A stretch of 64,000 nt of DNA from contig NZ_CP010976.1 in the NCBI RefSeq assembly GCF_000949425.1, positions 2,480,001-2,544,000 of the forward strand, written 5' to 3'. The position numbers were made by a program, and so were the translations under genes. The DNA comes from Paenibacillus sp. IHBB 10380 (GTDB lineage: Bacteria; Bacillota; Bacilli; Paenibacillales; Paenibacillaceae). The notes below the pieces were generated by a model, which saw nothing but the letters and a program-made list of their open reading frames with translations, ran no database searches and was not told the origin of the DNA. Positions 1 to 16,430 of this stretch are shown here, piece after piece. Numbering within the stretch: position 1 is the first letter of the stretch; each line of letters starts with the position of its first letter.

Positions 1-18
1 TAGTCGGTTTGCACAAGA

Positions 19-562: not shown

Positions 563-574
563 CACATTCATCAG

Positions 575-1255
575 TTAGCTGATGTTACTAGCCTCATCGA
601 TAAGCCCACATTCCCATTCTTCAAATTGTAATTTTAAACGACCAATGGTCTCTTCAACAAAATCAGCCACTATTTTATCTGTAATATATTCTGGTATAAT
701 CCCCGGTTCTTTGGAGGGGTCATTGAAAAATAAAAATGTCCTATCCCGCCACTGAATGACTTCCTCTGAGGTCAATAATTCTCCAAAAGAAAAACTTCTA
801 GATTCTGCTAATAGCTCCCATACTTCAGAACTCCACATTTTATGTTTATAGAGATTAAAGTCAATTTGGTCTGTCTCTTTGTAGTATAAAGTTCTAATCT
901 CTTCAGGTGTTCGGTTCAGTAATTCATTAGACTCAACAAATTTAGGGTGCAGTTCTTGAAACCAGTAATAATCAGTTAACAAATGCATAAAATATCCCCG
1001 TACAAACCATCTCCATTTCGTATCTGAACTTTGATTAATATAACTGGAATAGAGTGGTCCTAACCTCGCTAGATAATTCCCATCAACTCCCGGAGAAAAA
1101 TGGGTTTTGTTCTTATCCTCCCTAGTGGAACCATCTCTCATATGTATAGAATCTGGAGCAATATTCCCTAGGAAAAATGTATCCTTCTCAGTTTTTATTC
1201 CTAATTTTCCTATAAAACCAACAGCCACATTTAAATGAACCATAGGCAATGGCAT
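575..1255 (-). CDS. Zinc-dependent phospholipase C-like (Zn_dep_PLPC) protein
   Basis: 226 residues. The spaced metal-ligand candidates typical of the bacterial Zn_dep_PLPC superfamily are present: HLNVA near the N-terminus, APDSIH at about residue 32, KTHF at about 50 and HLLTDYYW at about 90. No signal peptide is visible, so the protein is probably cytoplasmic. Many such proteins are annotated only as hydrolases and the substrate is unknown. The start is supported by GAGGAGGAAAC about 9 bases upstream. The gene lies 24 bases downstream of a HIT gene in the same direction. Confidence 0.7.
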   Translation of the reverse strand: MPLPMVHLNVAVGFIGKLGIKTEKDTFFLGNIAPDSIHMRDGSTREDKNKTHFSPGVDGNYLARLGPLYSSYINQSSDTKWRWFVRGYFMHLLTDYYWFQELHPKFVESNELLNRTPEEIRTLYYKETDQIDFNLYKHKMWSSEVWELLAESRSFSFGELLTSEEVIQWRDRTFLFFNDPSKEPGIIPEYITDKIVADFVEETIGRLKLQFEEWECGLIDEASNIS

Positions 1256-1279
1256 GAATTCGTTTCCTCCTCAAAACTA

Positions 1280-1711
1280 CTAGAAATATCTTTGAGTTAG
1301 CTTAACAATCTCTCCGTTAAATTTACTTCTGGTTTCCTTTAATCTTGTTTCTGCTCTATGTTCAATCAGTGGTTCGGACCATGTAAAACCATCTCCCTTA
1401 TACCGAGGTATTACATGCATATGAAAATGGGTTAAGTCATTAAAAATACCACCATTCTGACAAATTGATATCCCATCTGGTTTATATATCTTTTTAATGA
1501 TATTGGTCATACGAATTGCACCACCCATTATTGCAGTAAGAGTATCCTGCTTCAACTCCTCTAAATCATGAAAATGTTCTTTTGGTAAAATCAATATGTG
1601 TCCCTCGTTGAATGGTGCAATATCAAGTACACAAGTAATATGATCATCTTCGAATACAACGTTCACTTCAGGTTCATTATGATTTGCAATTCTACATCCA
1701 AGACATTCCAT
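1280..1711 (-). CDS. HIT family nucleotide hydrolase/transferase
   Basis: 143 residues, the normal size for a histidine-triad protein. HFHMHVIPR at about residues 96-104 is the complete HxHxH motif, whose central histidine attacks the alpha-phosphate of the nucleotide substrate. Upstream, FNEGHILILPKEHF is the conserved HIT core, and the N-terminal CxxC pair (CLGC) is seen in many HIT proteins and may bind zinc. The RBS AAGGAG lies 6 bases before ATG. The exact substrate cannot be deduced. A second, divergent HIT gene lies at 11908-12414. Confidence 0.88.
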   Translation of the reverse strand: MECLGCRIANHNEPEVNVVFEDDHITCVLDIAPFNEGHILILPKEHFHDLEELKQDTLTAIMGGAIRMTNIIKKIYKPDGISICQNGGIFNDLTHFHMHVIPRYKGDGFTWSEPLIEHRAETRLKETRSKFNGEIVKLTQRYF

Positions 1712-1777
1712 AATGTACTCCTTAGTTTTTCAATTTTAATTATTGGATCCAGAATCTCCACTCTTTAAAGTTGCTAC

Positions 1778-2413
1778 TTATTTTTTGACAATGCCTATTA
1801 TTTCTCTTGGATCTTCTATTAAATAGTTTGGTTTTTCAGAGAATAGTATTTCTTTATTATAAAGACCCCATGAGACAGCAATGACTTCAACATTATTTCG
1901 CTTGCAGGCCTTTATATCCCTTACCTCATCTCCTATATAAATGAGTTCTTTATTAGATATTTTGTGCTCCCTCATATAGTTCTTAATCGCTTGGTCTTTG
2001 CCAAATAGCCCCTTTGATGATGTTATATGACTAAATAAGTTGATTTTTTGGTGGTTCAAGTACTCATTGATATTTAATTCTGAGTTTGAAGTAATAATGG
2101 ATAGAATGTAACCCTTATTCTTCAATTCACGTACAACATCTATTATTCCATCAAAAAAATTAACCGATTCCAGATAAAATTTGTATCTGTCTTTAAACTC
2201 GTGACCTATCTTTCCTATCACAAAGACCCTGAATATTGAAGCTTCAAGAGCCTTAAGTCTTTTTCTCAATGGGAGACTCATTATAACTTGGTACTCTTTC
2301 CGATCTAGCTTCTTAAGTTTGTATTTAGCAGCTAACTCGTTATATACCTTAACAATCACTTCAGCGGAATCTACAAGTGTTCCATCAAAGTCGAAAACGA
2401 TATGTTTCTTCAC
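1778..2413 (-). CDS. HAD superfamily hydrolase (phosphoglycolate phosphatase-like)
   Basis: 211 residues. Motif I DFDGTLVDS (residues 8-16) contains both catalytic aspartates, motif II is the Ser/Thr of SIITSNSE at about 105, a lysine (GKDQAIK) follows, and motif III/IV is IGDEVRDIKACK at about 160. The helical cap sits after motif I, as in the Gph/PGMB type. The start codon is GTG, chosen for GAGGT upstream. The physiological substrate, a small phosphorylated metabolite, is unknown. Confidence 0.85.
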   Translation of the reverse strand: MKKHIVFDFDGTLVDSAEVIVKVYNELAAKYKLKKLDRKEYQVIMSLPLRKRLKALEASIFRVFVIGKIGHEFKDRYKFYLESVNFFDGIIDVVRELKNKGYILSIITSNSELNINEYLNHQKINLFSHITSSKGLFGKDQAIKNYMREHKISNKELIYIGDEVRDIKACKRNNVEVIAVSWGLYNKEILFSEKPNYLIEDPREIIGIVKK

Positions 2414-2510
2414 TTGCTGACCTCATCTCTGAATTTCCTAAGCAAGATTCATCTAACCACCCCACCCATCTTAAGGTCTAGAGGACCGACCGATGCGGTA
2501 GATTCCTCCT

Positions 2511-2801
2511 CTATTTTATATTTATATAATGCTCCACTATCGGAAATGGCTCATAAAAATGATGTAATAATGCCTTCCATTCCTTATACTCATCCGATCC
2601 TCTAAATCCCTTTACATGGTCTTCGAGGGTTTCCCATCTTACCAGTACTATGTATTTATTATCCTCTTCTAAACACTTCTGCAATTCATGGTTTATATAG
2701 CCCTTCATGTTTGAAATAATCTTTGATGCTTCTTGAAATGTTGACTCAAAATGATGAGTTAATTCAGGTTTAATATGCAATATCGCTACTTCAAGTATCA
2801 T
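2511..2801 (-). CDS. Antibiotic biosynthesis monooxygenase (ABM)-fold protein
   Basis: 96 residues, the length of a single ferredoxin-like ABM domain. The pattern [13 protein letters not shown]...[12 protein letters not shown]...[13 protein letters not shown] matches the family, whose members are usually dimeric cofactor-free oxygenases or heme-degrading relatives. The chosen ATG has GGGAG about 10 bases upstream, and an in-frame upstream ATG at 2864 lacks a comparable site. Catalytic residues are not conserved enough in this fold to assign a reaction. Confidence 0.78.
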
Positions 2802-2886
2802 TATAATATGCTCCCATCTTGATTTCAGGTTATTTTTAACATTTATGATTAGCGGACCTATCACACTTCTTCAACTAAACTTACAA

Positions 2887-3627
2887 TTAGCCCTCAAAGT
2901 ACTTAACGAGCTTTCCAGGTTCAATCTTCTTATCAATAATATTTATTAAGTGTTTCCCAAGCTCTTCAGTTGATTGTAACTGTCCTGTTTGATGTGCCTG
3001 TTTAAACAATTTAGCCATTTCAAAATCTTGATCATCCTTTCCTCTCACGACTTGCTGCAATTCCGTTTCAACCATACCTGGATCTACAGCAATTATCTCT
3101 ATTGGATATTGTCGCTTCGATTGCTCAGCCCCGATACATTGAGTAAACATATTTATTCCAGCTTTAGCAGTACAATACACGCTCATCGCGGGTGCTGGAT
3201 ATGACCCAGAACCTGAAGATATATTTATAATCTTTTTCCTTATTGGAACGTCATCCATTTGATTTATAAAGTAAGAAGTCAAAACCATCGGAGCAATTAG
3301 ACTTATTTGTATGTTCTTATTAATTTCTTCGGCATTACAATTGTCTATGGTTTTTAAAGGTTCGATCATGGCAGCATTATTAATAAGGCAAATCATTTCC
3401 GAAGCATTTAAATTAATTTGACTGAAAATCTCTTTCAGTAATGGTTCGATTCCCAGTATATTACTCAAATCAAAATGATGATGGGTGTAATTTTTGTAAT
3501 TATCTAAAATATTTGAATCACCACGTGAAATACCATGTACACAATTTCCATTATCAAGGAGCATTCTGGCTAATTGTTCACCGATACCTCTTGATGTTCC
3601 AGTGATTATGAAGTGACCTTTATTCAT
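2887..3627 (-). CDS. Short-chain dehydrogenase, (S)-benzoin-forming benzil reductase-like (YueD type)
   Basis: 246 residues. The N-terminal dinucleotide site ITGTSRGIGEQLA (GxxxGxG, residues 8-20) points to NADP(H), and NNAA appears at about 87. The catalytic Ser-Tyr-Lys set is ISSGSG, then YCTAK at about 151-155. The C-terminal VDPGMVETELQ is typical of the YueD/sepiapterin-reductase-like branch. It probably reduces a dicarbonyl or carbonyl substrate in the cytosol; the substrate is inferred from family only. GGAGGT lies 5-6 bases before the ATG. Confidence 0.82.
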   Translation of the reverse strand: MNKGHFIITGTSRGIGEQLARMLLDNGNCVHGISRGDSNILDNYKNYTHHHFDLSNILGIEPLLKEIFSQINLNASEMICLINNAAMIEPLKTIDNCNAEEINKNIQISLIAPMVLTSYFINQMDDVPIRKKIINISSGSGSYPAPAMSVYCTAKAGINMFTQCIGAEQSKRQYPIEIIAVDPGMVETELQQVVRGKDDQDFEMAKLFKQAHQTGQLQSTEELGKHLINIIDKKIEPGKLVKYFEG

Positions 3628-3681
3628 TCAATGACCTCCGTTAGGGTATCGCATCTCTTCTAAATTAATTACGTGCATTCT

Positions 3682-4197
3682 TCATGAATCACTCTTATAA
3701 AAAAGATTGGTTAATATGTTTCTATTTCTTTGATTAATAAATTGCTTTTCTAGTATCATACCTAGTTTCTCAGCAACTCTCATAGAAGCAACATGATCAC
3801 TTGGCATATTTACACATATCCGTCTAAGTTTTAGATCATGTAGTCCGTATTGCAAGCATGCTTGAGCTGCTTCAAAGGCAAATCCTTGCTTCCAATATTC
3901 AGAGTAAATAATATACCCTAAGTCATATTCGGGTTGTCCATCTATTTCAGTTTTTACTATCCCTACATCACCAATCAAGTCACCGGTATCTTTTAATTCT
4001 AATCCCCATCTGCCATATCCATTATTATTGTAAGATTCGATATTTCGTTTTAACCATTGTTCCGTTTGATCAACCTTAAACGGAGAAGGCCAAAATGACA
4101 TTGTAATAGGATCAGATAAAATAGAATTTAATGGCTCAAAGTCGTTCATTGTATACTGCTTAACTAAGAGTCTTGTGGTTTCTAAGATGTTTAACAC
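3682..4197 (-). CDS. GNAT acetyltransferase, RimJ/RimL type
   Basis: About 171 residues from the GTG at 4197. LETTRLLVKQYTMNDF opens the domain as in RimJ/RimL proteins, and YSEYWKQGFAFEAAQACLQY carries the acetyl-CoA pyrophosphate loop (canonical Q/RxxGxG/A, here KQGFAFEA). LRRICVNMPSDHVASMRVAEKLGM is the conserved C-terminal half. AAAGGG lies 8 bases before this GTG, whereas the upstream in-frame GTG (4206) directly abuts that site. It may acetylate a protein N-terminus or a small amine; the target is unknown. Confidence 0.82.
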   Translation of the reverse strand: MLNILETTRLLVKQYTMNDFEPLNSILSDPITMSFWPSPFKVDQTEQWLKRNIESYNNNGYGRWGLELKDTGDLIGDVGIVKTEIDGQPEYDLGYIIYSEYWKQGFAFEAAQACLQYGLHDLKLRRICVNMPSDHVASMRVAEKLGMILEKQFINQRNRNILTNLFYKSDS

Positions 4198-4257
4198 TAG
4201 CCTCACCCTTTCGCATAATCTTGTGAATTCACGAAATGATCCAGCTTTAGATAGCTC

Positions 4258-4377
4258 TTATCTTAGGCTAGGCCATTTGTTGTCTGATCTTCTTCCATGA
4301 TTATACATCTGATAACCAAGAGGAGAAAGCCCAAAAGCATGAATTTCGTATTGTCCTAATAACCTCGCTATTTCAGG
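4258..4377 (-). pseudogene. Unidentified coding remnant (C-terminal fragment)
   Basis: An open minus-strand frame without a start codon reads in part LLGQYEIHAFGLSPLGYQM and ends at a TAA at 4258-4260. Its composition looks protein-coding, and it abuts the end of the kinase gene at 4373-4915, overlapping its stop in another frame. I do not recognise the family. It is best read as the tail of a gene whose 5' part has been lost, like other remnants in this region. Confidence 0.4.
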
Positions 4378-4915
4378 GTATTATTGAATTCAAATAACCT
4401 ATTACAATTTCCACTCTTTCTTTGACAGAGTGATCTCCCTCAATTCTCAAAATCGGACATGATAACCCTGACATCCAATGTTCATGTAAAGATCGGCTTC
4501 TAACTTCCAAGCCAGCTTTATCATAAAGTAAGGCCCACTCTATAAATTCCTTCGATTTTTCGTACATCGTTCCACCAGGTAATATTTCATCTCCGTATCT
4601 TAGAAATTCCCTTTCCTTTAATCTTTTCTCTCTTATATCTTGAGGGACATATAGAAAAACAACTAAATCAAAGAAAGCCTTTAATTCATCTCCCCAACCA
4701 CAAACCGCTCCAGAAAGTATCCATTCTTTATAATTTACAAGGTCTTCTTTTAAAAGATGAACCCTTTCTTGTGGTTCTCTCTGTTTCTCAAATTTCTCTA
4801 TCCAAAAATAATCATCACCATCAAAAAGTACATGAGGGAGAGATAAAGATAATCCTCTTCCTAGTGTCGTTGTTCCTGAACCAGAGGCACCAAATATATG
4901 TATTCGATTATTCAT
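4373..4915 (-). CDS. Small P-loop kinase, adenylate-kinase-like
   Basis: 180 residues from the ATG at 4915, which is preceded by GGAGG with 5-base spacing (two upstream ATGs are therefore rejected). The Walker A loop is GASGSGTTTLG at residues 7-17, with threonine replacing the usual lysine (GSGTTT instead of GSGKST). The same substitution occurs in a known group of Bacilli P-loop kinases. LFDGDDYFW is the probable substrate-binding acidic segment, and RLKEREFLRYGDEI the lid arginines. Function is unknown; small-molecule phosphorylation is inferred. Confidence 0.65.
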   Translation of the reverse strand: MNNRIHIFGASGSGTTTLGRGLSLSLPHVLFDGDDYFWIEKFEKQREPQERVHLLKEDLVNYKEWILSGAVCGWGDELKAFFDLVVFLYVPQDIREKRLKEREFLRYGDEILPGGTMYEKSKEFIEWALLYDKAGLEVRSRSLHEHWMSGLSCPILRIEGDHSVKERVEIVIGYLNSIIP

Positions 4916-5013
4916 ACTAACCTCCGTTGATTTCATCAAAACTATAACCTCGGCGTGTTTTTTTTATGATTATTTTGGTGTAAATGATTATCTCGGAACC
5001 ATTCTGATATTCC

Positions 5014-5157
5014 CTAAATAAGTTTCTTAACAATATCCTCTAATTTCATTCCTCTTGAACCCTTAAACAAAATCACATCGTTTTCTTCAACTAAACTAAT
5101 GATGTTGTCGATCAATAGTTGTCTACTCGAAAAATGCCTTACTAAACCAATTTTCAT
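5014..5157 (-). pseudogene. MurF C-terminal fragment (47 codons)
   Basis: The minus-strand frame ends LFKGSRGMKLEDIVKKLI. This matches the extreme C-terminus of UDP-N-acetylmuramoyl-tripeptide:D-alanyl-D-alanine ligase (MurF), where VLVKGSRGMKMEE is highly conserved. Only about 47 of the usual 450 residues remain. An ATG at 5157 has AAAAGGAG five bases upstream, so a peptide could still be made, but it lacks the ATP and nucleotide sites. It lies directly next to the palindromic element at 5191-5308. Confidence 0.7.
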
Positions 5158-5190
5158 ATGACTCCTTTTAATATTGGTATGGTTTCACCA

Positions 5191-5308
5191 CATTTCATAT
5201 AACGTTTCTGCTTTCACGACATCATCCACTTTAGACTGAGCTGAACGAGCTGTGCAACTATCGCGGTCTTAATTTACAAGAAGTGCTAATGTGTTGTTAT
5301 ACGAATGA
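5191..5308. repeat. attC-like imperfect palindrome, copy A
   Basis: The left arm TTCATATAAC (5194-5203) is matched by the inverted right arm GTTATACGAA (5296-5305), 9 of 10 bases. The arm continues with CGTTT...TTTCACGACATC, which recurs in the copies at 6911, 7438 and 8201. The overall plan, short inverted core sites flanking a long imperfect stem between two minus-strand genes, resembles integron attC sites. The attC reading is inference. Confidence 0.55.
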
Positions 5309-5337
5309 TGGTCTTCCTCGAATCCACTTACAAATCT

Positions 5338-5868
5338 TCAGTTCTTGTATAATATATTCTCTAATCGTTTTATCCAATTGCCATTCTTATCAGCAATGAG
5401 AGTATTCCATAATAGATCTTTCGCAGGTTTCATATTCTTCTCTTGGTCATCTACAAAAATTACTTGTAAATCGGTTTTTAATCTTGATTTAACGATTTCA
5501 TAACTCTCAGGATCAGGTTTGCAATATCCAATCGAACTATCTATACGATGATTACTGAGTAAATGGATATCCGCTACTTGACTCCAGTTAGGAACATAGT
5601 TGAACGCAGGTAATCTCTTTAGGTGCTTAACCAGGATAGTTTGTGCATTATGTATTTCAATCAATGGGCATTGCTTACTGATCCATTCCCAAAAATCTTC
5701 TTCGCTTATCTTACCTGTCCAAAGCAATTTTCGTATTTCTTGTTTGAATTGAGTTTTCAAGTTCTCACTTGAAACGAATGCTGATTCTGCAAGCTCATTC
5801 CAAAATAAAGGAGAAATATTTGTTATTATTACGCCTGCAATATCTAAAATTAATTGATATTTAATCAT
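5338..5868 (-). CDS. HAD-like protein with a shortened core (YihX-type), probably inactive
   Basis: 176 residues from the ATG at 5868 (AGGAG about 7 bases upstream). LILDIAGVI is HAD motif I, with the second aspartate replaced as in the YihX/epoxide-hydrolase N-terminal group. GYCKPDPESYEIV and VIFVDDQEKNMKPAK are motifs III and IV. Between LLSNH (motif II) and GYCKPD only six residues (RIDSSI) remain, where relatives have roughly 25-30, so an in-frame internal deletion is likely. A phosphatase or dehalogenase role cannot be claimed. Confidence 0.65.
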   Translation of the reverse strand: MIKYQLILDIAGVIITNISPLFWNELAESAFVSSENLKTQFKQEIRKLLWTGKISEEDFWEWISKQCPLIEIHNAQTILVKHLKRLPAFNYVPNWSQVADIHLLSNHRIDSSIGYCKPDPESYEIVKSRLKTDLQVIFVDDQEKNMKPAKDLLWNTLIADKNGNWIKRLENILYKN

Positions 5869-5978
5869 ATTTTGATCTCCTAGGTCCTTATTCAAGCTCT
5901 TTGGTTCTTTCGTATTACGTATTTGCATTCATGAACACGAAAGGTTCAAGTGACCTAAGAGAAAACTGGCTCTGCCAG

Positions 5979-6223
5979 TTAGTCTCGCAGGGTTAAGTCT
6001 CTGATTACTCTTCCTCGAATGAAGCAATCTTCTATGTGGAGTGTTTCAAGAAGTAAAAGTGAGGTTTCAATAGGAACATCCATATAGTCGCTTAGTTCTG
6101 CCCATAAATCTTCACGATAAGAGTCATTGTAATATCAGGAATCTGATTAATGATATTTATTCGCTCTTCAAACGAAGGACTGGGAATCGGTTCAAAATGA
6201 CCCAAGGCATTAGCCCGTAGCAT
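5979..6223 (-). pseudogene. Frameshifted small ORF, family unknown
   Basis: From an ATG at 6223 the frame reads NALGHFEPIPSPSFEERI and on to QIPDIT, then continues only after a one-base shift near 6120 (SYREDLWAELSDYMDVPIET and on to LTLRD, stop at 5979). Together the two halves give about 80 plausible residues. A perfect six-base stem (ACTGGC/GCCAGT, 5965-5979) follows immediately. I do not recognise the family. Confidence 0.45.
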
Positions 6224-6251
6224 AAATCCTAGCTATCCGTGCCATACTCCA

Positions 6252-6812
6252 CTATAATTGAAACTTTTCCTTAATAATATTTGCGACTTCTATTGGACTC
6301 ACACCTGTATTATTGATTTTAATATAATTTTCTTTTTTGATTTCACCATCCATAGAGTTTAATCTGTATTTTTCCATCGTGCTTCTTAAATCCTCTTCTG
6401 ACCACTCAATATTTCGTTTTGTTGGTTTATGGTTTAATCTGTGGGGACTTTTGTTACGCTCAAGTCTTTCTTCTACAGCTGCTTCAAGTTCAACAAAATA
6501 AACAACTCCACCTTTTGATTCAAATAAATCACTAATTTTATTAATATAATCCCAGTCAGTTTGCAAATCAAACGCCCATACATAAGTAAAAATCAATCCG
6601 TATAGATCACTTTTTGATACTTCTTCAAATATTTCCTGACGAAATAAATTAACTAATCTTTTTCCCGCTTCAGTGCTATAGCTAAAAGAGGGAGAAACCA
6701 ATTCAATAGTCATATGATTATGAAAAAGCTTCAATTTCGTTATTTTTTCTAGTTCATGTCCAACTGTCATTTTACCAACGGCCTGTGGTCCAAATATTAT
6801 AATAAATTTCAT
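6252..6812 (-). CDS. P-loop NTPase, shikimate/AAA-type small kinase-like protein
   Basis: 186 residues starting at the ATG at 6812, which has AGGAGG five bases upstream. MKFIIIFGPQAVGKMTVG contains the Walker A loop GPQAVGKMT (residues 8-16). HNHMTIEL supplies conserved histidines found in this uncharacterised family, GGVVYFVELEA is the hydrophobic strand, and RNIEWSEEDLRSTMEKYR is a conserved C-terminal segment. The product is probably a cytosolic kinase of unknown substrate. Confidence 0.72.
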   Translation of the reverse strand: MKFIIIFGPQAVGKMTVGHELEKITKLKLFHNHMTIELVSPSFSYSTEAGKRLVNLFRQEIFEEVSKSDLYGLIFTYVWAFDLQTDWDYINKISDLFESKGGVVYFVELEAAVEERLERNKSPHRLNHKPTKRNIEWSEEDLRSTMEKYRLNSMDGEIKKENYIKINNTGVSPIEVANIIKEKFQL

Positions 6813-6910
6813 AAATCCTCCTATTTGGAGCTTAAACACTATTTACAGATACTAACTCAAATTACATTTATTAGATACAACCCAAGAATAGCGAAATTCA
6901 GGGTTTAGCG

Positions 6911-6945
6911 CATTTCATACAACGTTTAATGTATTCACGACGTCT
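6911..6945. repeat. attC-like element, copy C (left half only)
   Basis: CATTTCATACAACGTTT followed by GTATTCACGACGTC matches copies A, D and E in the same orientation. The right arm is absent, because the next minus-strand gene ends at 6980, which suggests truncation. Confidence 0.5.
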
Positions 6946-6979
6946 ATTATCCTTATCTTTAAATAGAGAGCTACTTCCA

Positions 6980-7403
6980 CTATATTTTTCTTCCCTGAGG
7001 CAGTCTTCCCATTAATCGTTCTGATTCTCTTTCAAACCCATATTGTTCATACAATCCATGAGCATCTAATGTCGCTAAAATACCTGTCATCCATTCATAT
7101 TCTTCAGAATTAATAATAACTTCAACTAATTTCTTTCCAATACCTTGCCCCTGATATTCTTTCAACACAAATACATCACATAAGTAAAACATGGTTACTC
7201 CATCTGTGACGATCCTTGCAAAAACCAATTTGGTTATTATTATAATAAACGCCATAACAATGAGAAGATTCGATAGATTTCAATATCCGTTCAGGTGGTC
7301 TCCTGTTTGCCCAATAGCTTTGAGCTAAGTAATCCAGTACACATTGTCTGTTGATTTTGTCTTTATCATCTGATATTAAGAAATCATTGTACAAAATTTC
7401 CAT
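6980..7403 (-). pseudogene. GNAT acetyltransferase with a one-base frameshift
   Basis: From the ATG at 7403 (AGGGGG upstream) the frame runs MEILYNDFLIS and on to YGVYYNNNQIGF, then leaves frame. The continuation in the next frame is ARIVTDGVTMFYLCDVFVL, then the acetyl-CoA loop EYQGQGIGKKL and DAHGLYEQYGF. The junction is a run of five A on the plus strand (7220-7224), and removing one restores one continuous protein of about 140 residues. Read in frame it is a complete GNAT of the single-domain type. A sequencing error or slippage is not excluded. Confidence 0.8.
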
Positions 7404-7437
7404 GAATATCCCCCTCACAATTGTCTTTATCACTACG

Positions 7438-7560
7438 CAAATTTCGTCTAACGTTTCCGTGTTCACGACGTCCATGCACCTTAAGCTGCACAGGTCGTGA
7501 GTCTAGCGCGATCATGACCGGCCCGATGCGCTTAAGTGAATGGATGTGTTACCTGAATTG
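7438..7560. repeat. attC-like imperfect palindrome, copy D (most complete)
   Basis: TTCGTCTAAC (7443-7452) opposes GTTACCTGAA (7548-7557). Inside, GACGTCCATGCACCTTAAGC pairs imperfectly with GCTTAAGTGAATGGATGT, and GGTCGTGA with TCATGACC around the loop. The left core GTCTAAC fits the integron R'' consensus RYYYAAC; the right core fits GTTRRRY less well. It sits about 35 bases upstream of one gene start and about 95 bases after the previous stop. Confidence 0.6.
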
Positions 7561-7653
7561 GCTTCTCAGAATTACCTCGGCAACCGAATGACGGCGTAGC
7601 GGGCGATGCATGAACACTTGTTATCAAATGGGAATGCCCTCATCGAATGACAC

Positions 7654-8170
7654 TCATGATTTTCTTGGTACAAGAAACGTCTGAGACAACACTTGATGAG
7701 ATCCGAGTAATCCGTCTATCTCAATGTTGTCTTTCTCCTCAATGTAATCAATATTTCGTTTTTTGTAAAATCTCTTCCAAAATTGAACTGCGACAATATT
7801 GTTTTCTAATTGTTCAATCTTATATCTACCTGGAAAAAGATTTAAAATCATAGCTACCGCTTCGAATGCCATACTCTTTCTTCTATACTTCTTCAACATA
7901 AACAACTCTTGTATGGCGTAATCTACCCCTTCTACTACAAAAGGTGGAGAGCACACCAGGATAAATCCTACTATCTTATTATTATATTTGATGAAATACG
8001 GATGTAACTCTTCTCGATCAAGATACAAGTAAGTATTGGTCGGATCAAATTTCCCATCATCCTTAGTATCTTCATCAGTGTATTCAGACAACTCCATACA
8101 GATAGAGATTGTAAAGATTGAAAAAAATCTCTTTTTGTTCTTTATTGATTTCAGTTATTATTACACTCAT
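7654..8170 (-). pseudogene. GNAT acetyltransferase with a one-base frameshift near the N-terminus
   Basis: The downstream frame (7654-8097) encodes ELSEYTDED, then KIVGFILVCSPP and the acetyl-CoA loop FMLKKYRRKSMAFEAV. It lacks the first 25 residues of its family. These are found upstream in another frame from an ATG at 8170 with GGAGAATGAAC: MSVIITEINKEQKEIFFNLY, continuing to NLYLY. One extra G at 8094-8095 separates them; without it the protein reads NLYLYELSEYTD. The final glycine pattern (KSMAFE for RxxGxG/A) is also weakened. Confidence 0.75.
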
Positions 8171-8200
8171 GTTCATTCTCCTTGTATTTATATTTTCATC

Positions 8201-8250
8201 CATTTCTGATAACGTTTGTGTATTCCCAAACCCTCATCGGCTTAAGCCTA
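8201..8250. repeat. attC-like element, copy E (left half)
   Basis: CATTTCTGATAACGTTT followed by GTGTATTCCCAAACCCTC and a short palindrome GGCTTAAGCC (8239-8248). It has the same orientation and left-arm sequence as copies A, C and D. The right arm is missing because the next minus-strand gene ends at 8252. Confidence 0.45.
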
Positions 8251-8251
8251 C

Positions 8252-8830
8252 TCATAAATCCTTATTTTCTTTAAGTGCTCTAGGTTTATTGGTTATTATA
8301 AATTCTTTAATCATATTTGCACATTCAGTTATTGAGTTATTATTCGTATTTATTTCGAGATCATATTTGCTATATTTATGTACGATTTCAAATTGTGCTT
8401 TGGCTAACCCTATTGGCCTGTCTCTTCTGTCTCGTTCTCTTCGTTCGAGTTCATCAAGTGGACAATGGACCCCAATATAGAATGTTTGTGTATTATTAAA
8501 TAATTTAATACATTCCTTTAGCCATCTTGGCTCAATCAGTACATGATCAACTATTATATTCTTTCCAATCATAGAAAAAGCCGCAATATAATGATGAAAA
8601 AGTGATATTACTGGTGTTTCTATCATTTCTTCATTTTCAATAGTTCGTATTTCTTCTCTAGATACGTGTTCGCCAAACATACCCATCAACATATCATTTA
8701 CGCCAGCAATTGCGTTATCGACAGATAGGTAAATGAAATCTTCATCGAGTATTTGCATTAGCTCATAAGAAATGCTTGTTTTCCCTGCACTTGAGGTGCC
8801 GTTCAGGAAAATTACTGTTCCGTTTTTCAA
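8252..8830 (-). CDS. Chloramphenicol phosphotransferase-like (CPT) P-loop kinase
   Basis: 192 residues. The Walker A loop NGTSSAGKTS (10-19) is the form typical of CPT proteins. HCPLDELERRERDRRDRPIG is the CPT lid segment and AQFEIVHKYSKYDLEINT the C-terminal signature, with VDH at about 95 in the substrate region. CPT of antibiotic producers phosphorylates chloramphenicol. Many bacterial homologues are uncharacterised, so resistance should not be assumed. The gene lies between palindromic elements. Confidence 0.8.
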   Translation of the reverse strand: MKNGTVIFLNGTSSAGKTSISYELMQILDEDFIYLSVDNAIAGVNDMLMGMFGEHVSREEIRTIENEEMIETPVISLFHHYIAAFSMIGKNIIVDHVLIEPRWLKECIKLFNNTQTFYIGVHCPLDELERRERDRRDRPIGLAKAQFEIVHKYSKYDLEINTNNNSITECANMIKEFIITNKPRALKENKDL

Positions 8831-8978
8831 GTTTATTTATCTCCCTTCATGATAGGCTTCTGTCGGTATTGCATAACGTCTGTATATTTGTATCTATGAC
8901 AACTGTTGGTTCCAATCTATCATTACTAAGACTTCTATGAGAATACATCTTAGATTTCCTCCTTTATTTGACTTTGTT

Positions 8979-9344
8979 CTACGATTGGGCGTACTTCCAA
9001 GCTGCATAAAATTTGGATAACGAAGAAAATCTATTGTTTCTGTTTGGGTCGATAGCTTTTGCTGCTACATTGTACAACTCATGTCCCGCCTCCCACTTTG
9101 TGAAAGATCTATCCATTTCTCCACCAACTAAAGCAAAAGCTGCGGCTCTCCCATATTGAATACATTAGTTTTACTATCAATTTCCGCACCATATTCAAAT
9201 TCCTCAGGAGACATAAACTTCGAAGATCCCCAGAGTCTCCCAAGACTGTAAAAACGGTTCCCAATTCTTCTAGCCAATCAAAAACCTATGTTCTTTTTGT
9301 AATTGAAAAGATATAGTTTCTAATTCAATTGATACTGGACTCAT
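8979..9344 (-). pseudogene. Decayed protein-kinase-like gene
   Basis: It begins at an ATG (9344, GGAGG upstream) overlapping the end of the phosphotransferase gene and reads SIELETISFQLQKEHRFLIG, then a stop. Coding text continues in other frames: DWLEELGTVFTVLGD, then RLWGSSKFMSPEEFEYGAEI and KTNVFNMG, then AAAFALVGGEMDRSFTKWEA and finally SLSKFYAAWKYAQS. This is the start and the C-lobe of a Ser/Thr-kinase-like protein. The catalytic middle (about 100 residues) is deleted and there are at least two frameshifts. Confidence 0.7.
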
Positions 9345-10209
9345 TCAAATCCTCCCTACTTTTTTCAGCAGTCAGATTTCTTCTAATCTCTTGAATTAAT
9401 AAATTCTTCTCATCTTCAGATATTGCATCAGCTGATAATTTCCTTGCTGCAACAGGTATAAACCATGGATAAACTTCATTATAAGAAATACCTGTTAGTT
9501 CGGTGTATTCATCCATAAAAATGTTGATAATTGATTCTCTTATTGAATCAAAGAATTCCGTGACTCTACTTGGGAAATGAGATGGCAATATCGCATATCT
9601 TATCATAATTATATATTCAGCTAAGTCTGCTTCAGGATTACCAATTGAAGCATTCATCCAATCTATTGCTACAGCCTTGCCGTCGCTACTTTTCATGAAA
9701 TTCCCTGGATTGGGATCTCCATGGCATAGCACTTGTTTGGAAGGTAGAGATTCAAGTATGGAGATAATTGACTCTTTCTCAAGCAATGTTAAATATCCAA
9801 CACTATGTATCGAGTATGTTATATTTTCTCTTTGAGATGATGATAGTCTGGCATCTGATACATTGTGTATTTCACTTAGAATACGAGCAGTTAAACGGAT
9901 ATCTTCCCCATTAATATCTGAAGTACTAGTCATTTGATTCAGTGCTTGTGTCAGAAATCTTTCCATTAGTGTTTCTCCATGAATCCGTTCAAAAACTATT
10001 CCCGGTCGACCATCAATTTCCAATAACTCATATGGCCTGGCTACTGAAAGCCCCTTTTCCCATGCAATAACATTATTTTGGTACTCTCTACTCATAGCAT
10101 CATAGTCTGTATTAGCTTTTGCTAGTTTGATAAGCTTGCTGCTATCCTCAAGCTCAAAAACTTCTGAGCAGCCACCTTCACCAATTTTTAATCCAAGCTT
10201 TATGCCCAT
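9325..10209 (-). CDS. APH-family phosphotransferase (aminoglycoside/choline kinase fold)
   Basis: 294 residues, full length. LKIGEGGCSEVFEL is the nucleotide-binding loop, KLIKLAK holds the ATP lysine, and VLCHGDPNPGNFM (about 159-171) is the Brenner-type catalytic loop with D and N. AIDWMNASIGNPEADLAEY contains the metal-binding aspartate (IDW). The substrate is unknown, since the fold covers aminoglycosides, choline, homoserine and others. Its stop overlaps the start of the decayed kinase gene downstream, suggesting former co-expression. Confidence 0.82.
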   Translation of the reverse strand: MGIKLGLKIGEGGCSEVFELEDSSKLIKLAKANTDYDAMSREYQNNVIAWEKGLSVARPYELLEIDGRPGIVFERIHGETLMERFLTQALNQMTSTSDINGEDIRLTARILSEIHNVSDARLSSSQRENITYSIHSVGYLTLLEKESIISILESLPSKQVLCHGDPNPGNFMKSSDGKAVAIDWMNASIGNPEADLAEYIIMIRYAILPSHFPSRVTEFFDSIRESIINIFMDEYTELTGISYNEVYPWFIPVAARKLSADAISEDEKNLLIQEIRRNLTAEKSREDLNESSIN

Positions 10210-10309
10210 GCTAATTTCTCCTTTATTTACCTCGAATCAACTACCAAACCAGCTTCCTCTACGACAATTATCCAAATAGAAATTTCTTCAATATCATATC
10301 ATCACGCAT

Positions 10310-11215
10310 TTAGAGGTGCTCATTACACAAGAATTCATTAATTTTCATGTTTACATATTGTGGATCTTCTAGATTAAGTAGATGACCTGTTCCAGGAATA
10401 ATCTCTGCATGTATATTCTTGCATAATTGAGTTGCGCGATAAGATGCCAAATTGGCGTCACTAATGACTTCCTGATCCCCGAGGAGGAGGAGGACAGGCA
10501 TAGTGAGTCTCTTAAGCTCATCGTCACTGTAAACATCTGGTGGAACTTTCAATGAAAGAGAACCATATCTAAATGCAGCATGAAATTGGTCTACCAACGC
10601 TTTGTTTAGTTGATGTTTGGATAGCCACTTTATAAAGTGGCACACGTTCCATTTCATTGGAATTGCAGACATCGCAATAATTCGATAAATGAATTGTTTA
10701 TACAATGGCACAAATGAAGAGGCAGGACTAAGTAAAAACAATTTTTTAACTTTATGAGTCGCATAAATAGCGTAATTTATACCCAGAAACCCTCCATAAG
10801 AAATTCCACCGATACAACACGCATCAATTTCCAATCTATTCAACACTTCGTCTAACCATTCCCCGCATTCTACCCTATTCACGGGTAATATGCTCGGTAT
10901 ACTCTTATTCAAATCACCAATAAAATCAATTGCCTAGACTTTGTATTTTTTTGCTAGGTGTTGGATATTGGGGAACCAGATCGTTGAACTAAATCCCATG
11001 GCATGCAAAAGAATAAGTGGTTCACCATCATCTGGACCACAAGAAATGACATGAGTTTTTCCAAATCGTGTAGGAACATAGAATGTCGTATAAGGGACAT
11101 TCCATAAAGAAAGACTTTTTTCGTATTTAATATTGTATTTCAATTCCTTCTGCAAGGTTTTAAAGTGTATCGGATTGCTTGAAGCTACCTGAGTCTTGAT
11201 CCCCTTTCTTTCCAT
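10310..11215 (-). pseudogene. Alpha/beta hydrolase interrupted by an in-frame TAG
   Basis: The first 93 codons (MERKGIKTQVASSNPIHFKT through ILLHAMGFSSTIWFPNIQ and KKYKV) are followed by TAG at 10934-10936. The same frame then continues AIDFIGDLNKSIPSILP, the nucleophile elbow GGISYGGF, LLLGDQEVISD with the acid, and GTGHLLNLEDP with the histidine. A single change of a sense codon (probably TAT or TAC, as in related sequences reading YAIDFIGD) explains the interruption. All catalytic residues lie after the stop. A restart at ATG 10860 is conceivable but has no evident ribosome site. Confidence 0.82.
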
Positions 11216-11269
11216 AGTTCTCCTCCTGATTTTAAAAAATTCAGATGATATGATGAGTCCATTTCATAA

Positions 11270-11367
11270 TAACTCTTTCCGATAACGTTGCGAATTCCTG
11301 ACGTCCAATCGGCTTTAAGGCATGTAGTACCGGGTCGTCTATCTTAGCCGATTGAATGTCAAACAAT
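11270..11367. repeat. attC-like palindrome, copy G
   Basis: TTCCGATAACGTTGCGAATTCCTGACGTC matches the left arm of the other copies. GACGTCCAATCGGCTTTAAG is matched by the inverted CTTAGCCGATTGAATGTC about 35 bases downstream, giving a long imperfect stem. The outer right core is degenerate. Confidence 0.5.
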
Positions 11368-11396
11368 CATTACCTATAGTTTATACTTTTGCTCGC

Positions 11397-11873
11397 TTAG
11401 AGTGAATAATAGACAGCTTTGCCCTGAATAAAATCCCTACATAAGGTATCGCAAATTTCATCTGCATTGGTTTTAATCCAACCATTTCTATTAGAGTCAC
11501 GAATAAAAAAAACGTAACTAACAAATATGTCCATAAATATTAATCCTTCAATGTATCTTAAATCATCGAGAGTAATAGAACTTTTTGACGAATAACCATT
11601 TAAAAATGTTCTTCTCAACTCACTTGGAAGAATGGAAGAAGCACTACCTAAATCGAATAAATAATAACCATAACCAGATAAACTAAAATCGATTAAACTT
11701 GGGCGACCATTACTGATAATCACATTTCCTAATTGTAAATCGGCATGGATAAGACCCCAAGCGCATTCTCGCATATCCGTTATACTCTTCGTTAAAAGAA
11801 AGACTTCTAGGTAAATGGATGTATCTACCTGAATCACTTCCTCAAAAAACTCCTCTGGCAGATCAAGGGCCAT
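11397..11873 (-). pseudogene. APH-family phosphotransferase, C-lobe only
   Basis: 158 codons encode the C-terminal lobe of an APH-type kinase: GLIHADLQLGNVII is the catalytic loop (HxDxxxxN) and SLIDFSLSGYG the metal-binding aspartate. The N-lobe with the P-loop and ATP lysine is absent, and a stop lies just upstream. No ribosome binding site precedes the ATG at 11873. It is best taken as the remnant of a gene of about 300 codons truncated next to the HIT gene at 11908. Confidence 0.7.
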
Positions 11874-11907
11874 ATGGCCCGCAGCACGAGTATTGTGTTA
11901 GATGAAG

Positions 11908-12414
11908 TTACCTTGATTTACTTGAAAAATCCCTTAAACCATTTCTTAATATTTCAATTCCTTCAATCACTCTTTTCATATTCTCTTCGTCATTCATGTT
12001 ATTTCTTGCATGTAACAAAACAGGTCTTAATGATTCAACTGAATTACCAAACTGATACATCCATTCATATCTTGGAACCATCCATAAATGAAAATGATGT
12101 GTCGTGTCTTCATTATAAAAGTAATACACCTTGTCAATTCCCAATAATTTTCTTTGTTCTTTCCTTATCTTATGTATTAATGAAATATATTCAATTTGTT
12201 CTTCATTCGTTAACTCATCCATGCTGTAAAAATGTCTTTTCGAAGCTAGAATCACTAAACCTTTAATAGGGTAAGCAACATCTTGATGAGCATGAAAATT
12301 AGTGCTTTCATAAATCGTTCCGCCCGTTGGTGTGATTAATCCACTTGTTAAAGCGCAACTTAAGCATTCAACTTCTATTGATCTTCCGTCAGCCAATAAA
12401 ATATGTCTTGGCAT
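11908..12414 (-). CDS. HIT-like protein with an altered third triad position
   Basis: 168 residues. THHFHLWMVPRYEW (about 108-121) carries H-F-H-L-W, so the first two histidines of the HxHxH triad are kept and the third is tryptophan, a form seen in a branch of Bacilli HIT proteins. N-terminal CLSC and FHAHQDVAYPIKGLVILASKRHF are otherwise typical of nucleotide hydrolases of this superfamily. AGGAGGTG precedes the ATG. Substrate unknown. Confidence 0.75.
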   Translation of the reverse strand: MPRHILLADGRSIEVECLSCALTSGLITPTGGTIYESTNFHAHQDVAYPIKGLVILASKRHFYSMDELTNEEQIEYISLIHKIRKEQRKLLGIDKVYYFYNEDTTHHFHLWMVPRYEWMYQFGNSVESLRPVLLHARNNMNDEENMKRVIEGIEILRNGLRDFSSKSR

Positions 12415-12540
12415 ACTTCACCTCCTGGTTTTTTATAAACTCACTTCGTAATATCATCTAACATAAAATTCAATATCGATCCTATAAATCCTGCTATTTC
12501 CACATTTACCGATTTAATGTGTGAGATTAAAGGTTCAAAT

Positions 12541-12729
12541 TCATAATCAGCGCTTGCTGAAAATAGAATTTTATGCTGATCCTAGCGGAGAGGATGGAAT
12601 TGTCGTGGAGAAGCGTAGCGTTCGCCTTTGTCCCTGAATTTTTACCGCAAAGAGCGGTAAATTCAAAAAATTTGGGGGCAACAGCGATCGGAAGGACAAT
12701 CCATCCGCGTAGCGATCACTTATCAACTC
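12541..12729 (+). repeat. 189-bp dispersed intergenic repeat, copy 1
   Basis: It shares about 85% identity over its whole length with the inverted copy at 37976-38164. The element begins TCATAATCAG, contains GGATGGAATTGTC near one end and the complementary GACAATCCATCC near the other, a central ACCGC...GCGGT hairpin, and GGGGGCAACAGCGATCGGAA. It has no open reading frame of note. It can fold into one long hairpin, which suggests a miniature mobile or structural RNA-type element. Confidence 0.8.
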
Positions 12730-12776
12730 GATACGGTGTTGAGCCAGATTAAATAGAAATATTATTGTGAAATAGT

Positions 12777-12803
12777 AAAAAACCTCGAGAATAGTTCTCG
12801 AAG
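12777..12803 (-). terminator. Terminator of the YolD-like gene
   Basis: On the minus strand TCGAGAA pairs with TTCTCGA around a three-base loop and is followed by six T, about 18 bases after the stop codon. Confidence 0.75.
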
Positions 12804-12820
12804 TTTCTTACAGATCATAT

Positions 12821-13072
12821 TTAATCTCTAGGATAATCAACTCTCATGATATCCATAAATGGGACTTTATTGAGTACTTCAGCATCTTGAACATGGACCA
12901 ATCTTGTACGAGAATCCATATTCACAATCACTCCTCGCACTTGTTCAGAACGTCCCCAGACCGTTAACAGTATCTCACTATCCTCATTTTTTGCATCTAC
13001 TAGTTGATTTCCTAATTCTTCAAGTTCAAACTCGTCACGCGTGGGCCTTTTTGCTACCTTAGCCTTAGCCAT
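12821..13072 (-). CDS. YolD-like protein
   Basis: 83 residues from the ATG at 13072 (AAGGGGTG upstream; an in-frame GTG at 13081 overlaps that site). RPTRDEFELEELGNQLVDA, LLTVWGRSEQVRGVIV and KVPFMDIMRVDYP match the YolD family of Bacilli. YolD genes are often neighbours of Y-family DNA polymerase genes of the UvrX/YqjW type and may be UV-response antitoxin-like or accessory factors. No such polymerase is adjacent here. It has its own terminator. Confidence 0.82.
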   Translation of the reverse strand: MAKAKVAKRPTRDEFELEELGNQLVDAKNEDSEILLTVWGRSEQVRGVIVNMDSRTRLVHVQDAEVLNKVPFMDIMRVDYPRD

Positions 13073-13168
13073 ATATATCACCCCTTGCCAAGCACAATCC
13101 TATATCAATTATACCTCAAATCTAGCAACTCGACATTTGATTTCCTACATCGTTCTGAATCTATTCAT

Positions 13169-13843
13169 TTAATTCCTTTTTATCCCTGTCAGTAGTAGCA
13201 TTACGAACGATATTAGAATTATGGTAATCGTCCATACCCATGCTAGAGTCGTATTTCCTGAATCTACAGCAACATATATGGCAGTTGGGATCGTTTGTGT
13301 TTTCCCTGGGATATTTCCAGCTATCATCAATGTCGCACCGAATTCTCCAAGTCCACGGGCAAATCCAAGAATATAAGCAGATATTAAAGATCTAGAAACT
13401 AAGGGAAGTGTGATATATCGAAAAACTTGCCAATCCGTAGCTCCTATGGAACGACCTGCATCTTCTAATTCCTTATCCACAGAAGTAAAGCCAACCTTCA
13501 TTGTCTGATATACAAGTGGGAAGGCAACAACAATTGAAGCGATCACTGCAGCCCACCATGTAAAAATGACAGGAGCTGAGAAGAGCCATTCTATGGCCTG
13601 TCCCACCCAACTGCTACGTCCTAATAGAACCAATAATAAAAACCCAACAACCGTTGGAGGTAATACAAGAGGGAGTATAAATAGCGTTTCGATTAACGTT
13701 TTTCCTTTGAACTCATTTCTAGACATCCACCAGGCAATGCTTACTCCCAATATCACAGTCACAATGCTTGATAATAGAGCAACTTGTAATGATAATCGGA
13801 TCGGCGACCAATACATCTGCCAATCGATGTTCCCATCTATCAT
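13169..13843 (-). CDS. modB: Molybdate ABC transporter permease ModB
   Basis: 224 residues with about five membrane segments. The EAA loop that contacts the ATPase is DAGRSIGATDWQVFRYITLP. LPPTVVGFLLL and GLGEFGATLMIAGNIPGKT are typical of ModB/CysT-type permeases. The start overlaps the modA stop by four bases (ATGA), so translation is coupled. No modC ATPase follows; the next gene is the unrelated YolD-like gene. Confidence 0.9.
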   Translation of the reverse strand: MIDGNIDWQMYWSPIRLSLQVALLSSIVTVILGVSIAWWMSRNEFKGKTLIETLFILPLVLPPTVVGFLLLVLLGRSSWVGQAIEWLFSAPVIFTWWAAVIASIVVAFPLVYQTMKVGFTSVDKELEDAGRSIGATDWQVFRYITLPLVSRSLISAYILGFARGLGEFGATLMIAGNIPGKTQTIPTAIYVAVDSGNTTLAWVWTITIILISFVMLLLTGIKRN

Positions 13844-14625
13844 TTAGAAATCGAAAAGCCATATTTCACGAATATATCTAACGCTGGACTAGACTGGAGA
13901 AAGGTATAGAACTCTTCCGCCTCCTTACTATGATTTGTCGCTTTAACGATCCCTACAGGATATTCTATCTTGGCGTATGTAACCGGATCAACCGCAAATG
14001 CAATCTTTACCTTATCTGAAGTCAACGCATCTGTTTTATATACGAAACCAGCATCCACATTCGTTGTCTCCACATACTGCAATACTTGCCTAACATCTTT
14101 AGATTGTACGATTTTAGATTGTAATTGTTCCCATAATCCCATATGACTCAATGCTTCCTTCGCATAATTACCGGCTGGAACAGTTTCCGGAATACCTATA
14201 GCTACCTTTTGAAAATGTTCATCTATGAGGTCCTTTTCACTTGAAATAGGTACCTTTGATTCTTTAGGTATAACGACAACTAATTCATTAGTCAGCAAAT
14301 TTTGTTGTTCCTGTGCATCAACTAACTTTTTGTCTATAAGTGCGTTCATATTCTTAGTCGCCGCTGATAGAAATACATCCACTGGAGCCCCTTGCTCTAT
14401 TTGTTGCTGCAAAGCACCAGAAGCACCAAAGTTAAAATGAAGCTTTACATGCAAATGATCTGTTTCATATAAAGTTCGTATTTCCTGAAGTGCATCTGTT
14501 AAACTTGCAGCCGCCGAGATGGTTAGCTCCACCTTCTCATGAGAAGATTGACCACATGCCCCCAGTATAACTGCCATGAGTAACATAAGAGTCATAAGGC
14601 GACTAATTTTAACGATATTAACCAT
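13840..14625 (-). CDS. modA: Molybdate-binding lipoprotein ModA
   Basis: 261 residues. A lipoprotein signal peptide ends in the lipobox ILGAC (Cys24). ISAAASLTDALQEI, FNFGASGALQQQIEQGAPVD and VETTNVDAGFVYKTDA are the oxyanion-binding signatures of ModA. Anchored on the outer face of the membrane, it delivers molybdate (or tungstate) to ModB for molybdenum-cofactor synthesis. It is first in a two-gene operon transcribed away from the germination operon. Confidence 0.92.
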   Translation of the reverse strand: MVNIVKISRLMTLMLLMAVILGACGQSSHEKVELTISAAASLTDALQEIRTLYETDHLHVKLHFNFGASGALQQQIEQGAPVDVFLSAATKNMNALIDKKLVDAQEQQNLLTNELVVVIPKESKVPISSEKDLIDEHFQKVAIGIPETVPAGNYAKEALSHMGLWEQLQSKIVQSKDVRQVLQYVETTNVDAGFVYKTDALTSDKVKIAFAVDPVTYAKIEYPVGIVKATNHSKEAEEFYTFLQSSPALDIFVKYGFSISK

Positions 14626-14834
14626 TTGAGCCCTCCATCCATATCATCTATGATGTTTAGATTTAAACAAAATTCCTTATATAGCGATCGAACTTGATAA
14701 TTACAATATTATCACATCATTCACATCTATTATTACACTATCTTTCATTCATCACGGCTAAGTAATTAAGAATAACTATGCCACTCTTTGGTAATAGCTA
14801 TATACTAGCAGCTTGCGGAAGAGGGATAACAACG

Positions 14835-16427: not shown

Positions 16428-16430
16428 GCA

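Follow-up and report, generated by a model that had tools for sequence, protein, structure and literature searches.

Palindromic sites of Paenibacillus resemble the attC sites of an integron-like gene-cassette system whose recombinase lacks the IntI-specific insert

A stretch of 64,000 nucleotides from the chromosome of Paenibacillus sp. IHBB 10380 (NZ_CP010976.1, here contig C1, positions 2480001-2544000; hereafter the window) carries imperfect palindromes that recur in one orientation between short genes. Our comparisons suggest, with a probability of roughly 0.9, that these elements serve an integron-like gene-cassette system as attC-like recombination sites. This reading is well supported by sequence: it draws on the anatomy of the sites, their clustering into arrays, a tyrosine recombinase and an attI-like site next to the arrays, the pairing of cassette ends and the exact borders of shared cassettes, and such a system would work like an integron. 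A cassette would typically consist of one open reading frame (ORF) followed by the palindrome. A recombinase whose gene stands at the promoter-proximal end and points into the array would fuse a circular cassette with an attI-like site located about 80-160 nucleotides past the recombinase coding sequence, and would join or excise cassettes at the sites through an exchange at G^TTA in the R' core. It would presumably be the adjacent recombinase that does the joining, with the site acting as a folded single strand and integration taking place at attI first. We do not file the system as an integron because the additional (I2) domain, the testable defining trait of the integron integrase, is absent. 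The array in the window is a minor, decayed side array or remnant of the larger cassette system.

Anatomy of the sites

Read in gene direction, a site consists of CATC-NNN-TAAC (R''), a spacer, L'' (TATTCACGC or TGTTCACGC, among other forms), a branched middle that differs in kind between sites, L' (GTCGTGAATAC or GTCGTGAACAC, among other forms), a longer spacer and AACG^TTA-NNN-GAAA (R'). The whole element, 80-210 nucleotides long, is an imperfect palindrome laid out as R''-L''-(branched middle)-L'-R'. Its two spacers, 5′ and 3′, differ in length, which is a trait of attC sites. The attC core consensus is RYYYAAC/GTTRRRY; the cores found here follow NNNTAAC in R'' and GTTANNN in R' and not the strict form. 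A two-arm scan of the arrays fetched from this genome and related ones identified 303 elements, and none once that sequence was reversed. In 40 genomes (this one included) the core pattern was matched 26 times, against once for the pattern read backwards, and the strict core with at most three mismatches was found twice in the window, where 0.04 matches are expected.

The L''/L' stem covaries within the site, for example as A-T in 183 and C-G in 77 sites, or as C-G in 193 and T-A in 60 sites (n = 303). One full copy (L013) folds far better than shuffled sequences on either strand (z = -3.3 and -4.7). RNAalifold on a MAFFT alignment returned only 10 pairs, one of them changed on both sides, probably because the middles differ in type; the arms were therefore tested directly.

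Arrays in the genome, the genus and the order

We based a covariance model (R1) on 21 full copies, drawn from this genome and related ones. With 150 of 792 first-look candidates scored, and subsets counted by hand, the genome has 103 R1 matches at E ≤ 10 and 92 at E ≤ 0.01, of which 89 are on the minus strand and 3 on the plus strand. The main array (C1:2610716-2668126) holds 60 sites in one orientation over 57 kb, and array 2 (2412461-2428197) holds 17. Some copies in the genome are solitary. R1 matches at E ≤ 0.01 are present in 45 of the 61 genus genomes, this one included, with at most 46 candidates scored per genome; these counts are the outcome of the covariance search of this and other Paenibacillus genomes that the original prediction, made from the window alone, had proposed as a check. 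At E ≤ 1e-4, matches are found in 92 of 149 genomes sampled from the order and in 15 of 121 sampled from the class, 9 of the latter 15 lying outside the family Paenibacillaceae. In P. crassostreae (G016:C1), sites at about 10-37 kb and at 4598-4624 kb show similar scores and spacing at both contig ends, where the copies L009 and L024 differ by one base; perhaps this likeness reflects an assembly with redundant ends or a large duplication.

Cassettes as probable units of exchange

If the element were a self-contained hairpin, R'' and R' should pair within a site. If circular cassettes are cut at G^TT, R' should pair with the R'' of the next site downstream, and each chromosomal site would be a hybrid whose last bases come from the next cassette, because the exchange falls at G^TTA in the R' core. 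We compared the three variable core bases of R' and R'' and used 2000 shuffles as the reference. The R' triplet is complementary to that of the next site downstream, which belongs to the same cassette, in 181 of 270 cases (shuffle mean 16.3, maximum 31). The corresponding counts are 31 of 303 for the R'' of its own site (18.3 by chance), 22 of 270 in the wrong direction (16.5 by chance) and 20 of 251 for site i+2 (15.3 by chance). As far as sequence can tell, pairing across the gene within one cassette, combined with an L stem within the site, is the pattern expected of integron arrays. The longest ORF of a cassette is in sense orientation in 247 cases and antisense in 17, and 10 cassettes have no ORF of 50 amino acids (n = 274); one ORF per cassette, in the same orientation, is also what integrons usually show.

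We then looked for shared cassettes among the 274 cassettes cut at G^TT, counting as a pair two cassettes whose likeness covers 60% or more of the longer. Both copies begin at the first base after G^ in 13 of the 17 pairs found. In three of the other four, one copy starts after G^ and the second lies within a longer unit that perhaps contains an undetected site. Over the 13 exact pairs, identity is 0.43 in the 60 nucleotides preceding the cut, which equals the value for random sites (0.43, standard deviation 0.11), and 0.87 in the first 30 nucleotides inside. The likeness extends to the far end in 5 of these 13 pairs, with 0.85 identity over the last 40 bases and 0.38 beyond. One 704-bp cassette is present twice in this genome (2651698-2650994 and 2661285-2660583, 98.4% identity), and another is shared with P. 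crassostreae (2659951 in this genome, 2154501 in G016, 92%). These comparisons indicate that the cassettes are discrete units exchanged at G^TT, and the palindromes look like true recombination sites. Clean gain or loss of units at the cores had been proposed as a test between strains; exchange of this kind was seen between loci and between species, the comparison being of one genome per species and not of strains. Among 65 cassette ORFs of at least 70 amino acids from the main array and P. crassostreae, GNAT, short-chain dehydrogenase, NUDIX and APH are the most frequent Pfam families.

Many palindromic copies, some of them solitary, would also be seen if the element were a dispersed repeat, similar to a repetitive extragenic palindrome or a miniature inverted-repeat transposable element, inserted between genes. 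This was the alternative named in the original prediction. The copies were found concentrated in one-orientation arrays between ORFs, and the shared unit is a gene plus its site with exact borders at the cores. The dispersed repeat was rejected on the pairing counts, near chance within a site (31 of 303) against 181 of 270 within a cassette, and we give it almost no credence.

The adjacent recombinase and its attI-like site

The genome has 23 PF00589 matches, one of which is located directly upstream of the main array, while two adjoining pieces lie directly upstream of array 2. From the window alone, a cassette system in a Firmicute with a recombinase possibly elsewhere had been suggested, and a tyrosine recombinase was to be sought at the promoter-proximal end of the array; such a gene does stand there in the main arrays of the genome and, with the arrays and the exact cassette borders, supports that suggestion. 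Both copies are broken, and their PF00589 matches start at profile positions 64 and 73, which we take to lie past the first catalytic arginine. The system of this genome looks dead now, because both copies lack the part of the domain that holds this arginine. Tyrosine recombinases of equal score are also encoded at C1:355696-356232 and on a small second contig (C2:9413-9949).

The pieces of the broken recombinase were searched apart, and a 112-residue C-terminal piece served as the query for the genus (E ≤ 1e-25). The family was detected at 15 places in 14 of the 61 genus genomes, this one included, with open frames of 372-397 residues in seven; intact members include L041 in P. crassostreae and L042 in P. 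solani. At least 10 sites are present in 13 of the 14 genomes with the recombinase, against 10 of the 47 without it (P = 2e-6, Fisher's exact test).

Ten arrays out of the 15 recombinase places were read by eye for an attI site, the others being unfetched or at contig ends. Recombinase and cassettes are co-oriented, and the first site starts 464-1617 nucleotides after the recombinase in all 10. In nine, the attI crossover is a GTTA core located 79-159 nucleotides after the coding sequence, and in eight the triplet of the attI core fits the R'' of the first cassette (by eye), as at the attI of an integron. Over 14 loci read by eye, the attI-like core is GTTA in 13 and GTTC in one. A conserved sequence of the type TTCGTGAA..ACG or GCAGATTAGGAG precedes the attI core. 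A perfect LexA-type box (GAAC-N4-GTTC) was found in none of six upstream regions of 400 nucleotides, the best being 7 of 8 bases at L040; LexA/SOS control of the integron recombinase is frequent, not defining.

The arrays could alternatively be relics mobilised by another enzyme, with the adjacent recombinase as a passenger. The broken recombinase of this genome, the 10 genomes that have arrays and no detected recombinase, and the family members without visible arrays would all fit with such a history. The junction core of the attI-like site matches the first cassette at 8 of 10 loci, and the like arrangement recurs in other phyla, both of which argue against a passenger; we consider it very unlikely.

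A recombinase without the IntI-specific insert

For two of the three recombinase fragments in this genome, the best NCBIfam match is TIGR02249 (integron integrase), and the third matches nothing; both pieces from the main array match TIGR02249. At 1e-45, no TIGR02249 match was found in the genome. The six intact proteins score 188-223 bits with TIGR02249, all under its cut-off of 265, and 205.9-225.3 bits with the XerA-type NF040815, one of the six exceeding its cut-off of 220. TIGR02249 is the best match for two of them (L040 and L041). The nearest solved structure by sequence is IntI4 (5e-39); the alignment consists of two stretches and leaves a long additional piece in IntI4. For a confident structural model of L041 (mean predicted local distance difference test score 89.8, predicted template modelling score 0.62), the best fold match is IntI4 (2a3v; E = 3e-15, TM-score of 0.43 over the query), with XerA close behind.

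The catalytic K loop is separated from the HxxR box by 58-64 residues in all 35 measured family members and by 100-101 residues in all 5 measured IntI, one broken family row and four IntI rows being left out of the measure. This spacing implies that the IntI-specific insert of about 40 residues, which bears I2, is absent. The presumed catalytic residues are invariant in a 53-row alignment. The Paenibacillus proteins carry about 95 additional residues at the N-terminus, a part that shows a weak, sub-threshold likeness to HARP (E = 0.004-0.015 in three of six). In a 47-row tree, IntI forms a single clade (100/100), and the family together with IntI is separated from four other tyrosine recombinases of the genome (100/99), comparators that have long branches. 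The tree places IntI inside the recombinase family; since the family as one clade is not rejected (P = 0.479, approximately unbiased test), we make no claim of nesting.

A canonical chromosomal integron, with an ordinary IntI overlooked by surveys, would account for the plan of site, attI and cassette, for IntI4 as the closest solved protein and for the TIGR02249 matches of both main-array pieces. It is difficult to reconcile with the lack of the insert in 35 of 35 proteins, the sub-cut-off scores in six of six, the lack of a TIGR02249 match at 1e-45 in the genome and the extra N-terminus, and it seems unlikely to us. The scores and the absent insert rule out a canonical IntI recombinase, insofar as the insert defines IntI. 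Elsewhere in the Bacillota, one of 199 genomes encodes a protein (L154, G197:C122:3188-4054) with TIGR02249 over the cut-off (375 bits) and an IntI-type spacing of 100 residues.

The lack of the insert, which in IntI reads the extrahelical bases of the folded attC (as passages of PMC4792948 describe), also bears on how the sites are used. The palindromes might be recombined as ordinary double-stranded sites of the Xer/dif type, with the fold incidental or serving another end. By eye, attI and the L'-R' arm have a common core like TTCGTGAA..ACG^TTA, which speaks for such use. The element is nevertheless a long palindrome with branches, and across 303 sites its L stem covaries, an arm-to-arm constraint that a short double-stranded site does not need. 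We regard double-stranded use as possible but doubtful.

Several observations weigh against an integron-like cassette system. Full pairing is lacking in 89 of the 270 cassettes, which could be explained by decay, missed sites or another process. One gene that is 94% alike across species (C1:2665730 in this genome, G061:C1:2834028) is accompanied by attC sites of different type; simple cassette exchange does not explain this pair, which looks as if gene and site could be re-paired. The best site of the window (7442-7630) folds no better than shuffled sequences (z = 0.28). NF040815 (XerA), and not TIGR02249, is the best match for four of the six intact proteins, and 10 of the 47 genus genomes without a detected recombinase carry at least 10 sites. 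The attI core does not match the first cassette in two of the 10 arrays read, in genome G012 and in array 2 of this genome, where two GTTA cores lie downstream of the recombinase and neither fits. Finally, recombination itself is deduced from sequence, through one genome per species.

Relatives beyond Paenibacillus

A search of named genomes covered the best 80 of at least 575 relatives of the recombinase (loci L074-L153), 51 of which are followed by 1.5 kb or more of DNA. A model-free search found clusters of at least three sites on the recombinase strand at 14 of these 51 loci, two of which were dropped (L135, pairing 0/1; L136, 1/2). At the remaining 12 loci, four of them from Paenibacillaceae, adjacent sites pair in 32 of 55 cases, against 30 of 367 for other pairs. 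Adjacent pairing is complete in Halanaerobacter (4/4), Flavobacterium limicola (2/2) and a Chitinophaga metagenome-assembled genome (MAG; 3/3); it is 3/4 in Flavobacterium NRK F7, 1/2 in Flavobacterium UBA7665 and weak in Fusibacter (2/9). A Nitrospirae MAG (L083), which also has one R1 match of 42.7 bits, and an Aequorivita MAG (L095) show 1/2 each; pairing with the wrong partner is as frequent there (2/4 and 3/4), so that neither is proof alone. Recombinase relatives followed by such arrays are thus found in Halanaerobiales and Bacteroidota; for Clostridia and the Nitrospirae MAG this is less certain. The other 37 of the 51 loci have no cluster of at least three sites on the recombinase strand, so the family is wider than the arrays, and its array-less members may do other work or have short arrays. 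A repeat search over 10 kb at the Algoriphagus and F. suncheonense loci revealed no such repeats among the families listed. More distant relatives (<60% identity) occur on rhizobial and other plasmids (529 records at 1e-20).

We somewhat favor the wider view that these systems constitute a second class of integrons across Bacillota, Bacteroidota, perhaps Nitrospirota and further, whose recombinase has been without the I2 insert from the start and falls together with IntI, separate from the remaining tyrosine recombinases in the comparison. If so, they would represent either an intermediate that still lives or a sister invention, would have attC-like cassettes and no I2, and would directly answer how attC sites were selectable before the domain reading them existed.

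The array in the window

Scored with R1 with filters off, the window contains five significant and three weak sites, every one on the minus strand; site 7442-7630 is nearly intact and the rest are decayed (Table 1). The plausible genes are on the minus strand, in agreement with the original prediction of genes on one strand, and direct reading and repeat families bear out its element recurring between genes in one orientation. Of the copies it placed at 5191, 6911, 7438, 8201 and 11270, the first three correspond to R1 sites (5193, 6913 and 7442) and the other two are weak only (8203 and 11276). Two further copies, which it called weaker, did not hold: 8866 has no R1 match, and 12452 has only a plus-strand noise match of 6.4 bits. 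Sites 4209-4360 and 11767-11907 had been overlooked. The core TTCGTCTAAC (7443) had been paired with GTTACCTGAA (7550); the true partner is GTTATCAAATG at 7620, the real end of the element. The two-arm scan picked up only two of the window's sites, and Rfam gave only one sub-threshold match in window positions 1-20000, taken as chance. Downstream of the array, positions 575-4206 hold more small minus-strand genes and no site above noise; these genes may be older cassettes with decayed sites.

Table 1. Sites and genes of the array in the window (window coordinates)
Feature	Position	Strand	Evidence
attC-like site, decayed	4209..4360	-	R1 40.8 bits
Cassette gene, small AAA_18-type kinase	4373..4939	-	ORF; Pfam PF13238 2.3e-7
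attC-like site, decayed; 3' core CG^TTATATGAAA on minus strand	5193..5306	-	R1 33.1 bits
Cassette gene, HAD-like by eye	5338..5928	-	ORF; no Pfam family at 1e-3
Weak attC-like match	5908-6074	-	R1 16.3 bits, E 0.064
Cassette gene, small kinase-like by eye	6252..6839	-	ORF; no Pfam family at 1e-3
attC-like site, only 3' arm well kept	6913..7071	-	R1 21.4 bits, E 0.007; exact core match
Decayed cassette gene, two overlapping ORFs (6980-7255, 7176-7475), GNAT-like by eye	6980..7475	-	Second ORF: no Pfam family at 1e-3
Best preserved attC-like site of window	7442..7630	-	R1 121.8 bits, E 1e-21; exact core match
Whole cassette, crossover to crossover; ends still pair (R' TCA, R'' TGA)	7452..8212	-	By eye
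GNAT acetyltransferase gene of cassette 7452-8212	7654..8097	-	Pfam PF00583 6.1e-8
attC-like site, 3' core arm only, CG^TTATCAGAAA on minus strand	8203..8271	-	R1 14.8 bits, E 0.12; direct repeat family D1
Cassette gene, chloramphenicol phosphotransferase-like family	8252..8830	-	Pfam PF07931 4.8e-42
APH phosphotransferase family gene	9325..10209	-	Pfam PF01636 3.6e-13
Alpha/beta hydrolase gene, split into two ORFs	10310..11215	-	Pfam PF00561 for 10313-10912
attC-like site, weak remnant	11276..11446	-	R1 11.8 bits, E 0.45
attC-like site, decayed	11767..11907	-	R1 47.0 bits, E 1e-7

Comparison with known systems

In open-access PMC literature, judged by titles and the starts of abstracts, with preprints and most subscription journals outside this scope, we found no paper that deals with these arrays. 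Firmicutes, with 103 complete genomes, are absent from a table of intI carriers in PMC2426708, and they are named among the phyla with integrons in a passage of PMC8618304. In the relevant part of PMC9024848, IntegronFinder 2.0 reports Limnochorda pilosa as the only complete Firmicute integron, plus a few clusters of attC sites lacking an integrase (CALIN), which may include pieces of the present arrays. Firmicutes are thus described in these excerpts (PMC9024848, PMC2426708) as nearly integron-free, yet such sites occur in 92 of the 149 genomes of our order sample.

Integrons are said to have gained single-strand recombination through acquisition of the I2 helix (in a section of PMC7790495), which also states that direct proof of I2 as the cause is lacking; the acquisition and its chicken-egg paradox are discussed in portions of PMC4792948 and PMC7790495. 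A recombinase without the supposedly integron-defining domain may open a view on the origin of integrons, and a cassette system without I2 makes this question testable at the bench. These bacteria may also keep in their arrays a large, unread reservoir of genes open to exchange, which could be why GNAT, NUDIX, APH and small kinase genes cluster there.

Sedentary chromosomal integrons (superintegrons), such as that of Vibrio IntI4, whose sites are the Vibrio cholerae repeats (VCR), share with the Paenibacillus system the one-orientation array, the attC plan, the exchange at G^TT, an attI beside the recombinase and tens of sites. They differ in that the Paenibacillus recombinase lacks the IntI-specific insert, has an extra N-terminal part and is co-oriented with the cassettes, its sites have a branched middle, and a perfect LexA-type box is upstream in none of six cases. 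XerC/XerD with dif, and pdif modules, have the same Xer-type fold and gene modules between sites, but their sites are short and double-stranded, and they are not known to have an attI or a recombinase beside the array. The Limnochorda pilosa integron is likewise a complete cassette system in a Firmicute, and was found by an IntI-based method (as the cited part of PMC9024848 has it). Archaeal integrons, in the passages of PMC9668308 concerned, likewise have cassettes, attC folds and an attI immediately downstream of the recombinase gene; their IntIs carry the IntI-specific additional domain, which is there taken as the defining trait of IntI, whereas the Paenibacillus recombinases do not.

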